Both the position numbers and the translations under genes were made by a program. A stretch of 64,000 nucleotides of DNA. It comes from Marinitoga piezophila KA3. GTDB lineage: Bacteria; Thermotogota; Thermotogae; Petrotogales; Petrotogaceae. The stretch is from positions 434,001 through 498,000 of the forward strand of contig NC_016751.1 of assembly GCF_000255135.1 (NCBI RefSeq), given 5' to 3'. Of the stretch, positions 17,533 to 22,191 are shown piece by piece (positions within the stretch are counted from its first letter, which is position 1; every line of letters starts with the position of its first letter). The notes beneath the pieces were generated by a model. It ran no database searches. It worked only from the letters and a program-made list of their open reading frames with translations, and was not told where the DNA came from.

Positions 17533-17553
17533 ATGAAATAAATGGGGGATTTT

Positions 17554-18681
17554 ATGGAAAAAGTTTATTTTTATGATGGATTTTTATGGGGTGGAATATT
17601 TGATTCTTATCAAATAGAAAAAATGAATGATCGTACAAACTGGGATGAATGGCAGAAAAAAGGAAAAATAAAAGACGGTACTACATTAAAAATCATAGAA
17701 AAGTTTCAGAAGAATTTATTTTCTGAAACTTTTGAAATTTCTAAAAATATAGGATTAAATTCCTTAATGTTTTCAATAGAATGGGCAAAAATATATCCTG
17801 AAATGGGATATATCAATCGTGCAAAATTAGAAAGTTATAAAAACTTTATCCTATCTCTGAAAAAAGAAGGAATTGAAATATTTTTAATTTTAAACCATTT
17901 TACTTTTCCAATCTGGTTTGAAGAAAAAGGTGGTTTTCAGAATGATGAAAATCTTAAATTTTTAATTTCATACACTGAAGAAATAGTAAATGAATTTAAA
18001 GATATAGTTGATTACTATATTCCTTTTTATGAACCTTTAAAATATATTGATTATGCGTATAAAAAAGGTTTATATCCTCCGGGGATTAGCGATGAAAAAA
18101 TTTCTGAAATAGTTAAAGAAAACATAATAAAAGTTTATAAGGAATTATATCTTTTAATACACAAAAATAATATTTATTCCAAGGTCGGAATTATCAAAAA
18201 TACAAATTATGATAATACTTTTTTTAATGTTTTAAAAAATTATATGGATTTTCTGGGAATTACATTTTACGATGATAAAACATCAGGTTTACCCCGTACA
18301 GTTCAAAAAGATGATATTGGAAATAATATTTATCCAGAAAAATTGAATATTGAGATACCAGAATTAAAGAAATATGATAAACCTATTGTAATTTCTTCTA
18401 TCGGCATTGCTGATGAAAGCGATATTTATCGATCTCAATTTTTGATAAAAACAATTTCCTATATTCATGAGTTATTAAACAATAATATTAAGATTATGGG
18501 GTATTTTCACAAAAATATCTTTGATTTATTTGAATGGGAAGAAGGGTTTAGTGCCGAATACGGATTATTTGAATTTGATTCTATAAATAATCGCATAAAT
18601 CCTCGACATAGCGCTAAAGTTTTTTCCAATATAGTTCAATCGAATAAAATACCACCTCATTTAATCAAATATACTCAATAA
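17554..18681 (+). CDS. Glycoside hydrolase family 1-like protein lacking the nucleophile
   Basis: 375 residues with the GH1 TIM-barrel landmarks: FLWGGIFDSYQIE at the N-terminus, LMFSIEWAKIYPE, LNHFTFPIWFEEKGGF, and FEWEEGFSAEYGLFEFD near the end. The acid/base element is FYEP (Glu160) where family members have NEP. The nucleophile motif I-T-E-N-G is replaced by ISSIG at 280-284, so Ser282 stands where the catalytic Glu should be. It is also shorter than typical members (about 440-450). It may bind a sugar without hydrolysing it, or use another mechanism. The start is the ATG after GGGGGA. It ends at a hairpin terminator. Confidence 0.75.
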   Translation: MEKVYFYDGFLWGGIFDSYQIEKMNDRTNWDEWQKKGKIKDGTTLKIIEKFQKNLFSETFEISKNIGLNSLMFSIEWAKIYPEMGYINRAKLESYKNFILSLKKEGIEIFLILNHFTFPIWFEEKGGFQNDENLKFLISYTEEIVNEFKDIVDYYIPFYEPLKYIDYAYKKGLYPPGISDEKISEIVKENIIKVYKELYLLIHKNNIYSKVGIIKNTNYDNTFFNVLKNYMDFLGITFYDDKTSGLPRTVQKDDIGNNIYPEKLNIEIPELKKYDKPIVISSIGIADESDIYRSQFLIKTISYIHELLNNNIKIMGYFHKNIFDLFEWEEGFSAEYGLFEFDSINNRINPRHSAKVFSNIVQSNKIPPHLIKYTQ

Positions 18682-18727: not shown

Positions 18728-18871
18728 ATATATACTTTAATTTTTTTAAAGCCACTTATAAAAAAATTGAATTTTCTATAAAAAAATTTATGATATTTTA
18801 ATATTTGCTATTGACAAATAAAAATTTTTTTGTTATAATAGGGTTGAACTTATAAAAATTAAAGTATATAT
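18728..18871. repeat. 18-bp inverted repeat flanking a strong promoter
   Basis: 18728-18745 (ATATATACTTTAATTTTT) is the exact reverse complement of 18854-18871. The arms are 108 bases apart and bracket the promoter at 18811-18839. Both are AT-only apart from one C/G, so chance is possible. Confidence 0.6.
18811..18839 (+). promoter_or_regulatory. Consensus sigma-70 promoter for a 39-residue ORF
   Basis: TTGACA (18811-18816), 17 bases, TATAAT (18834-18839): a full consensus match, the best in the window for a protein gene. It implies a leader of about 100 bases before the small ORF at 18950. Confidence 0.85.
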
Positions 18872-18949
18872 AAATAAAATTAAAATAACCACGTCTATTA
18901 AGATGGAGAGAAATTAAATAATAATATTTTTTAAAAAGGGGGTTTTAAT

Positions 18950-19069
18950 ATGTTGAAAAGAAAAAAACATTTTTTAAAAGAAAAAAAGACAAGATCATAC
19001 TACGAAGGATTTGATTCAATGACTGAATTAAAAGATGTATTATTAGAAATGAAAAGATATCAATTGTAA
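18950..19069 (+). CDS. Small basic protein, 39 residues, unknown
   Basis: An ATG preceded by AAAAAGGGGG opens a 39-codon frame. The product has a strongly basic N-terminus (MLKRKKHFLKEKKTRS) and an amphipathic acidic/hydrophobic C-terminus (MTELKDVLLEMKRYQL). I do not recognise it. The consensus promoter, good ribosome binding site and downstream terminator argue that it is expressed, possibly at a high level. Nucleic-acid binding or a small regulatory peptide would suit the charge pattern, but this is inference. The ~100-base leader could also be the functional RNA. Confidence 0.6.
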   Translation: MLKRKKHFLKEKKTRSYYEGFDSMTELKDVLLEMKRYQL

Positions 19070-19093
19070 CTTTTATTGCTACTCCTTCCTAAA

Positions 19094-19126
19094 AAAAGAA
19101 GCTCCGAAATTTTCGGAGCTTCTTTT
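19094..19126. terminator. Bidirectional terminator
   Basis: A near-perfect palindrome (19094-19109 with 19111-19126, core GAAGCTCCGAAA) with A and T runs on the two sides ends both the small ORF and the converging arsR-type gene. Confidence 0.9.
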
Positions 19127-19437
19127 TATTCATTATTTATAATACTATGTGCACTTTTAAGTTCTGAATGAATAATATTTTTTGCATCATCAAAGAGTTC
19201 AAAAATATGCGGATATTTTAATTCACAATATACAATATTCCCAACCTTTTCTTTTTTAATTAAACCAACATCTTCAAGAATTTTTATATGTTGAGATATG
19301 CTTGACTGCGTAAGCCCTAGCTTTTCAGAAATCTCAAGAATATTACATTCTTTATTATTTAATATTTTTAAAATTCTCAATCTTGTAGGATGAGATAAAG
19401 CTTTAAATATATCTGCTAATAAATCACAATTATCCAT
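19126..19437 (-). CDS. ArsR/SmtB-family transcriptional regulator
   Basis: A 103-residue winged-helix repressor. FKALSHPTRLRILKIL is the family opener; the recognition helix lies in ISEKLGLTQSSISQHIKILEDVGLI, followed by the wing KKEKVGNIVYCELKYP. An N-terminal Cys (MDNCDLL), a Cys in NNKECNIL and one in YCELK are candidate metal or thiol ligands, but the classical ELCVCDL motif is absent. The ATG at 19437 sits eight bases after GGAG; an in-frame GTG three codons upstream overlaps that site. It may autoregulate or control the neighbouring FAD enzyme. Confidence 0.9.
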   Translation of the reverse strand: MDNCDLLADIFKALSHPTRLRILKILNNKECNILEISEKLGLTQSSISQHIKILEDVGLIKKEKVGNIVYCELKYPHIFELFDDAKNIIHSELKSAHSIINNE

Positions 19438-19510
19438 ATTCAACACTCCATCTTTTAGTATTTCTAAGTAAAGTATAAAGTTTTAGTTTTACGATATATT
19501 CAAGGAAAAA

Positions 19511-21072: not shown

Positions 21073-22119
21073 TTAATTCATTCTTTTATTTAAGTATTTT
21101 TTCAATTCATCAAATGAAATTTCGAAAATATTATCTATAATATAATCTAAATCATCTATATCCAGATTTTCAATTTTATTTCTTAATTTTTCTATATCTT
21201 TTTCTTTAAATTTTCTTTTTAATAATTTTATTACATCTTCAACTTTTGCGCTATGTAATCCTTGCTGTAATCCTTGTTGTAATCCTTCTTGTAATCCCTG
21301 CTCTAAACCTTCTTTTCTTCCTTCAATCATTGCTTTTTCTTTACTTTCTTTTATCGCTTCTTCAACTGTTCTTATAAAGTTTTCAAACATTCCCTCCACC
21401 TCCTCATTTTCATATATCTCGAGTTCTTTTTTATCGATTCCAGTTTTATTCGTTAATACATTAATTACTATACCTACATATTCTTTAAATTTCGCTTTTT
21501 CAGTTTCCGGAAGAGTTTCTAATTCTTTCTTTATCTCTTTTAACGTTTCTATTATCCTTTCTGTTTCCGACTTATTTAAGGTTAATAATAGTCCCAATGC
21601 ATTTTTTATTCTTAATAACCTTTCTTCCTCTAATTGACTTAGATCTATTATTTCATATTTAAATGATGGTACATATTCTGAAAACATTTCCCAATTTTCT
21701 ACTTTTTTCATAAACCAATTCTCGGCTGTCCATTTTCTTTTCCCTGTATAGAATACTATGGGGATTATAGGTATAAGCTTGAAACCTTTTGTTCTTGATT
21801 CTTTTTTAAAACTTTTTATATATTCTCTCCATATTCTAATCATATATTCTAATATTCTAAATTGCATCAAATAATCAACACTTGACTGATGTTCAATTAA
21901 CAAAAATAAATACATTTCTCTTTCATCATACTTTATTTTAAACAATAAATCACTTTCCTTATCTCCATAGGCTAAATCAGTGAAACGTGTATTCTCTATT
22001 TTTATATTTTCTGGTTTTATGTTATAGGATCTCAATTTTGGTAAAAATATATTTATAAATTCAACAAGCATTTCCTTATCAGATAATATATTTTTAAATA
22101 GTTGATCTTCCATCCCCAT
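21073..22119 (-). CDS. Rpn-family PD-(D/E)XK nuclease / putative transposase_31
   Basis: 348 residues. The N-terminal domain matches the Rpn (recombination-promoting nuclease) family: MEDQLFKNILSDKEMLVEFINIFLP, then FTDLAYGDKESDLLFKI with the catalytic Asp and YLFLLIEHQS with the E-x-Q variant of the E-x-K motif. Then follow PIIPIVFYTGKRKW and a helical region. Near residues 275-295 there is a repeated EGL/QGL heptad-like run (GLEQGLQEGLQQGLQQGLHS), usual in this family. These proteins occur in several divergent copies per genome. The ATG follows GGGGGGA. Confidence 0.88.
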   Translation of the reverse strand: MGMEDQLFKNILSDKEMLVEFINIFLPKLRSYNIKPENIKIENTRFTDLAYGDKESDLLFKIKYDEREMYLFLLIEHQSSVDYLMQFRILEYMIRIWREYIKSFKKESRTKGFKLIPIIPIVFYTGKRKWTAENWFMKKVENWEMFSEYVPSFKYEIIDLSQLEEERLLRIKNALGLLLTLNKSETERIIETLKEIKKELETLPETEKAKFKEYVGIVINVLTNKTGIDKKELEIYENEEVEGMFENFIRTVEEAIKESKEKAMIEGRKEGLEQGLQEGLQQGLQQGLHSAKVEDVIKLLKRKFKEKDIEKLRNKIENLDIDDLDYIIDNIFEISFDELKKYLNKRMN

Positions 22120-22191
22120 TTAGATCCCCCCTTAAAAATATATTTATCATGAAATATTATAAAAAAATTTATTTCTTATGTCAAGAATACA

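Follow-up and report, generated by a model that had tools for sequence, protein, structure and literature searches.

The described systems closest to the locus reported here are small proteins and peptides connected with transport. Transporter-linked small proteins include AcrZ (PMC7267776), WatS1-5 of Methylomonas (PMC10355033), and SgrT-PtsG and others (reviewed in PMC10710835). BmrB of B. subtilis is encoded by a small ORF that lies directly 5' of the multidrug exporter genes bmrCD (PMC4191407), while peTrpL of Sinorhizobium is a leader peptide that regulates multidrug efflux in trans (PMC7298713). Leaderless bacteriocins are small cationic peptides with tandem genes and neighbouring ABC exporters (reviewed in PMC6131525).

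Here we consider a short gene of Marinitoga piezophila KA3, found in a stretch of 64,000 nucleotides (NC_016751.1, positions 434,001 to 498,000) that is referred to below, as a whole, as the window. A preliminary description had noted a compact transcription unit with a 39-codon ORF. To this the present analysis adds a peptide family that spans the Petrotogaceae, tandem gene copies, and a repeated linkage to exporters.

Organization of the peptide gene

The features of the unit, in window coordinates, are as follows.

18728..18745, unstranded: upstream arm of an inverted repeat, ATATATACTTTAATTTTT, 18 bp, perfect
18811..18839, plus strand: sigma-70 promoter TTGACA-17-TATAAT with extended -10, 12/12 consensus match (-35 TTGACA at 18811-18816, 17-bp spacer, -10 TATAAT at 18834-18839 preceded by TG)
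18846..18949, plus strand: 5' leader of ~104 nt, its start placed from the -10
18854..18871, unstranded: downstream arm of the inverted repeat, AAAAATTAAAGTATATAT, within the leader, 18 bp, perfect
18936..18942, plus strand: Shine-Dalgarno sequence AAGGGGG, 7 nt 5' of the ATG
18950..19069, plus strand: ORF for a 39-aa small protein, MLKRKKHFLKEKKTRSYYEGFDSMTELKDVLLEMKRYQL, a member of the SYYEGF family (conserved in 20/21 Petrotogaceae genomes; pN/pS <1)
19093..19127, unstranded: near-palindromic intrinsic terminator with 16 pairs, a loop of 3 and a T-run

The good ribosome binding site, the 39-codon ORF, the leader of about 100 bases and the strong terminator of the preliminary description are thus all in place. 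Its promoter, which had been called the strongest protein-gene promoter in the window, does match the consensus perfectly but shares that rank with a second 12/12 promoter at 22184 on the minus strand (TTGACA-17-TATAAT, 22156-22184), just 5' of a 348-aa ORF (21073-22119, minus strand). Perfect sites of this form number 38 in the 2.24 Mb genome (contigs of 2,231,407 bp and 13,386 bp) versus 2 for a reversed control pattern, which indicates that as a class they are real promoters rather than chance occurrences. The window promoter also fits the form of the Thermotoga maritima RpoD promoter, which resembles sigma-70 promoters, with spacer lengths that centre at 17 bp and with a TGn element (PMC3636130). 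Judging from its promoter, the unit is likely to be strongly transcribed. Of the earlier proposal that compact, strongly expressed units of this kind often encode abundant small proteins or regulatory RNAs, the small-protein half is upheld, with strong transcription and abundance as predictions, and the regulatory-RNA half is not supported.

The inverted repeat that brackets the promoter is unusual for its composition: arms of >=18 bp were reached in 1/2000 dinucleotide shuffles (P about 0.0005), and this is the sole AT-rich segment of the window with arms >=16. The arm has zero further exact sites and one 1-mismatch copy elsewhere in the genome, and for this reason an operator common to other genes was rejected. 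At the homologous sites described below the repeat was not found, the longest arm there being 10 bp. It thus appears to be private to M. piezophila, where it could be an operator or a chance occurrence. The leader behaves similarly. At homologous sites with a recognisable promoter its length ranges from about 28 to 103 nt and it aligns poorly, so that its conservation, looked for in relatives, was not found; in the window its predicted structure is not above that of shuffles (fold z = -0.92). A special role for the long leader or for the repeat is accordingly not borne out.

The terminator is followed by a convergent ArsR-type gene (19126-19446, minus strand), which it probably serves as well, and no same-strand gene lies directly downstream. 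On the other side of the unit lies a gene for a GH1-like protein of 379 aa (17542-18681, plus strand), which falls short of the 453-position Pfam model and in which the nucleophile motif TENG is not obvious. The genes that flank the unit, namely the GH1-like gene and one for an FAD-dependent enzyme, occupy different positions in other Marinitoga, apart from each other.

The peptide is hydrophilic (mean hydropathy -1.06, net charge +5) and has neither a transmembrane helix nor a long hydrophobic stretch. Its basic head is confirmed, with a net charge of +7 across 15 residues; the amphipathic tail is only suggestive for a single sequence (Eisenberg moment 0.39, P = 0.14 versus shuffles). AlphaFold2 modelling from the single sequence gives one helix, with 4/5 models of low confidence (pLDDT 63-69). 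The product is best read as a small, cationic, cytosolic and probably helical protein.

Conservation and distribution of the SYYEGF family

The conservation of the peptide in relatives, on which the earlier description had made its own validity depend, is clear. Used as a lone query, the window peptide finds homologues in each of the 6 other Marinitoga genomes, and profiles built from 15 and then 23 members find the peptide in 20/21 Petrotogaceae genomes, G016 being the member without it. Genomes outside the profile seed set (G012, G015, G017, G018 and G020) still match with E values of 8e-8 to 6e-12; the window peptide, itself a seed row, scores 9.5e-16 against profile A2.

Members are 31-41 residues long. 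They open with a variable Lys/Arg-rich head; the motif S-Y-Y-x-G-F-[DEN] comes next, and a helix-like stretch then leads to E-x-x-[RK] near the C-terminus. Three features define membership: an N-terminal tail that is basic, S-[YF]-x-x-[GA]-[FY]-[DEN] after it, and E-x-x-[RK] near the C-terminus; the window peptide has all of these, and its gene has the 17-bp promoter spacer and strong Shine-Dalgarno sequence typical of the family. Ser16, Glu33 and Arg36 are >=90% conserved, and the conserved Arg lies between 1 and 5 codons from the stop, depending on the member. In 14/16 pairs pN/pS is 0.12-0.56; it is 0.92 in the other 2, one of which has few differences and one of which is probably saturated. 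Codon change is thus mostly synonymous, which argues for selection at the protein level.

Outside the family the peptide is absent from the genomes searched. With the profile, 82 genomes of other Thermotogota gave none save a single weak hit that falls within a long gene, and 291 genomes of a Clostridium class gave 0. Among 29 genomes carrying a related MFS gene the sole match was G130, which by its coordinates is family member G013 again; as G107 likewise appears to be G016, the set outside the family comes to 27 genomes, some of which may overlap the phylum set, with the peptide in 0/27. Elsewhere in the Thermotogota, and in Clostridia, MFS genes have no comparable upstream ORF, and plasmids and phages gave no match. 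It should be noted that absence in other phyla refers to a 36-position profile and to samples of genomes. None of the members scanned had a credible match in Pfam-A, NCBIfam, PHROGs or PDB sequences.

Three apparent similarities were dropped. The match in G064 (E 0.002) sits inside a long ORF, and a segment of a 722-aa methyl-accepting chemotaxis protein, SMNSYFKGFEDIKNLKDVY (profile A1, E 2e-4), belongs to an ordinary long gene and is gone with A2; both were judged chance. A by-eye likeness to Sda-like sporulation inhibitors (S-Y-[YF] ... E) was abandoned after a negative Pfam scan of all 23 members.

SYYEGF is therefore best read as an undescribed family restricted, within the genomes sampled, to the heat-loving Petrotogaceae, by which it is carried almost universally.

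Neighbourhood of the homologous genes

A scan of the homologous sites that allowed spacers of 16-18 bp, with a slight preference for 17, found a promoter with a match of >=10/12 at 21/26 sites, every one with a 17-bp spacer. Sites without a near-consensus promoter include the three ABC-linked copies, which are internal to an operon. All homologous starts have a strong, G-rich Shine-Dalgarno sequence. Tandem small ORFs occur in G004 and G005 (two, then an MFS gene), in G010:C2 and G013 (three each), and at two sites of G011 (two each).

At 15/26 sites, in relatives and at the genome's own paralogue, the next same-strand gene is an exporter, the window copy having none; this is a raw count over phylogenetically non-independent sites. 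These exporters are MFS proteins in 6 Marinitoga genomes, a heterodimer-type (BmrCD-like) ABC pair in 3 Marinitoga genomes, MFS or ABC proteins in 5 Petrotoga-like genomes (our inferred name for genus g3), and an MFS protein of another subfamily in G014, so that at least 4 separate exporter types stand behind the peptide. An amidohydrolase-like gene is also among the downstream neighbours in G014. In Marinitoga the gap between peptide and exporter is about 11-19 nt and the exporter Shine-Dalgarno sequence abuts or overlaps the peptide stop, which makes translational coupling of the two likely. In four Petrotoga-like loci (L074, L089, L090, L091) ~230-270 bases of degenerate GC-rich repeats, gggtggggagcggggcgaagg, lie between peptide ORF and exporter, in AT-rich surroundings.

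Most non-exporter sites resemble the window, the peptide gene standing alone ahead of a terminator or a convergent gene; such stand-alone copies occur in G000, G007, G009, G010, G012 and G013. The MFS homologue of M. piezophila itself (68% identical) is unlinked, at C2:2178764, with its own promoter.

The ABC operon deserves separate mention. The peptide copies of L025, L031 and L032 lie inside this operon, which has its own apparent attenuator further upstream. In the BmrCD-like operon of M. piezophila (L025:1969-2240; G000:C2, about 295.5 kb), as in L031, L032, L224, L230 and L226, a short uORF is present. Its Shine-Dalgarno region (in Marinitoga, GGAGGTTATCACA) is able to pair with TGTGATAACC within the uORF, and 3' of this pairing lies a strong terminator hairpin, or two of them (GGGCTATGG...CCATAGCCC). 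In G007 the stem letters differ and the pairing is kept. The region folds with z -6.2 and has no Rfam family match; it has the look of an attenuator mediated by the ribosome. In G011 (L229:1150-1500) and G007 (L226:1260-1500, locus reverse strand) the homologous ABC exporter is immediately preceded by tandem small basic ORFs of other sequence; those of G011, e.g., MKRLKYLNKEQKNELIDKMNQYKNIVYEITRKI and MNKYLEKILNKKQKKEIENIYKYIHYDNIRKF, likewise end in a tail of the ..RK[IF] kind.

Two genomes bear on how strict the association is. G001 has the operon with an intact ABC gene and without the peptide. In Marinitoga lauensis (L230, G002:C11:201553-202536) the ABC gene has two in-frame stops and the SYYEGF peptide upstream is missing, so that peptide and intact ABC frame are both lost. 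The tie to efflux is thus recurrent, not obligatory.

Discussion

The DNA itself shows that the gene is there, what class of promoter it has, that it is conserved and has been duplicated in tandem, and that it repeatedly precedes drug-type exporters of the MFS and ABC kinds. From these we tentatively favour a small protein that acts in trans and is connected with efflux. The peptide would be made in quantity and serve as an accessory or regulatory protein, its target being perhaps the cytosolic face of the transporter, or else an RNA or regulator that controls the transporter. The variable Lys/Arg-rich head could bind nucleic acid or acidic membrane in a general way, and the conserved SYYEGF...ExxR segment could make the specific contact. 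Action in trans is argued for by the retention of the peptide away from the exporter and by the stand-alone tandem units. Against the efflux link it must be said that there is no exporter near the stand-alone sites, which suggests that the link is not obligatory, and that the exporters may owe their position to nothing more than the strong promoter behind which they came to lie.

An arrangement in which the ORF is a cis-acting leader peptide, drug-induced ribosome stalling on it raising the downstream exporter and the window copy having been orphaned when its exporter was relocated, would account for the position of the ORF immediately 5' of exporters with an overlapping Shine-Dalgarno sequence, for the differing exporters behind the same peptide locus in Petrotoga-like genomes, and for a conserved block that closes close to the stop and, at ~24 residues, is short enough for the ribosome exit tunnel; bmrB is its precedent (PMC4191407). 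It is nevertheless rather unlikely, given that five genomes conserve the peptide although the next gene is convergent and nothing co-directional is left to control, that the peptide-exporter junction RNAs share no hairpin able to hide the exporter ribosome site, that the position of the conserved Arg relative to the stop is not fixed, and that the ABC operon is already provided, 5' of the peptide, with a uORF attenuator of its own. In the window itself the conserved core is intact though the exporter is elsewhere, and a role solely as a cis-acting leader is thus unlikely. We consider it about equally unlikely that the product is a general abundant basic protein, binding RNA, ribosomes or DNA with no special efflux link, whose strong promoter is a favourable landing place for exporters. 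The strong promoter at stand-alone sites, the near-universal presence and the Lys/Arg-rich head all suit such a protein, as do the downstream genes that vary among related genomes, the amidohydrolase-like gene included; less readily explained are the several unrelated exporters behind the peptide and the copy inside an operon that has its own upstream attenuator (L025, L031, L032).

A leaderless exported peptide, a bacteriocin or signal for which the adjacent MFS or ABC pump would provide export or immunity, agrees with the length of 31-41 residues, the cationic character, the 1-3 related tandem copies, the missing signal sequence and the exporters nearby, yet is improbable for a hydrophilic peptide with many acidic residues in its core that is near-universal and conserved rather than sporadic and has many copies without an exporter. 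Very improbable indeed is a regulatory RNA with an incidental ORF. The transcript is compact and ends in a strong terminator, and as a whole it does fold better than shuffles (z -3.76), but largely because of that terminator, the leader alone staying at the level of shuffles; moreover, it is the amino-acid sequence that is conserved and not the leader sequence. With leader and inverted repeat unconserved and the leader unstructured, this reading is not supported.

If the favoured reading of a trans-acting, efflux-connected protein is extended, soluble cationic small proteins might form a class of partners or regulators of unrelated MFS and ABC drug exporters, which would have been recruited repeatedly behind the same peptide gene during Petrotogaceae evolution; we regard this extension as rather doubtful. 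In any case, the Petrotogaceae, in which few small proteins have been studied, gain a conserved small-protein family that is absent from the curated libraries searched, and its loci form a concrete, testable gene set.

Comparison with known systems

Like leaderless bacteriocins, SYYEGF peptides are short, cationic and without a leader, with genes that are in tandem in relatives and single in the window; unlike them, they are hydrophilic, have acidic residues in the helix, are conserved throughout the family, and often lack an exporter. The likeness to BmrB is one of position only, a small ORF directly 5' of a multidrug exporter in relatives. In contrast to BmrB, no alternative terminator/antiterminator was found within the SYYEGF ORF, and mutually exclusive hairpins overlapping the ORF, a trait of leader peptides, were looked for with the result of no significant leader structure and no shared junction structure; further differences are the conserved amino-acid motif and the stand-alone copies. 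The peptide peTrpL, which unlike SYYEGF derives from a trp attenuator, is compared as a precedent, with no sequence relation evident.

By manner of working, the transporter-modulating small proteins appear nearest. AcrZ, WatS, SgrT and their like are also small, easily missed ORFs tied genetically to efflux or transport, sometimes with several homologous copies per genome. AcrZ and WatS1-4, however, have a transmembrane helix, whereas the SYYEGF family is hydrophilic and Lys/Arg-rich, with no sequence relation found. AcrZ and WatS, the exporter modulators among the small proteins cited, are membrane proteins, and each goes with a single pump. Should the efflux link prove true, it would therefore be unusual for one family of soluble peptides to serve MFS as well as ABC exporters.
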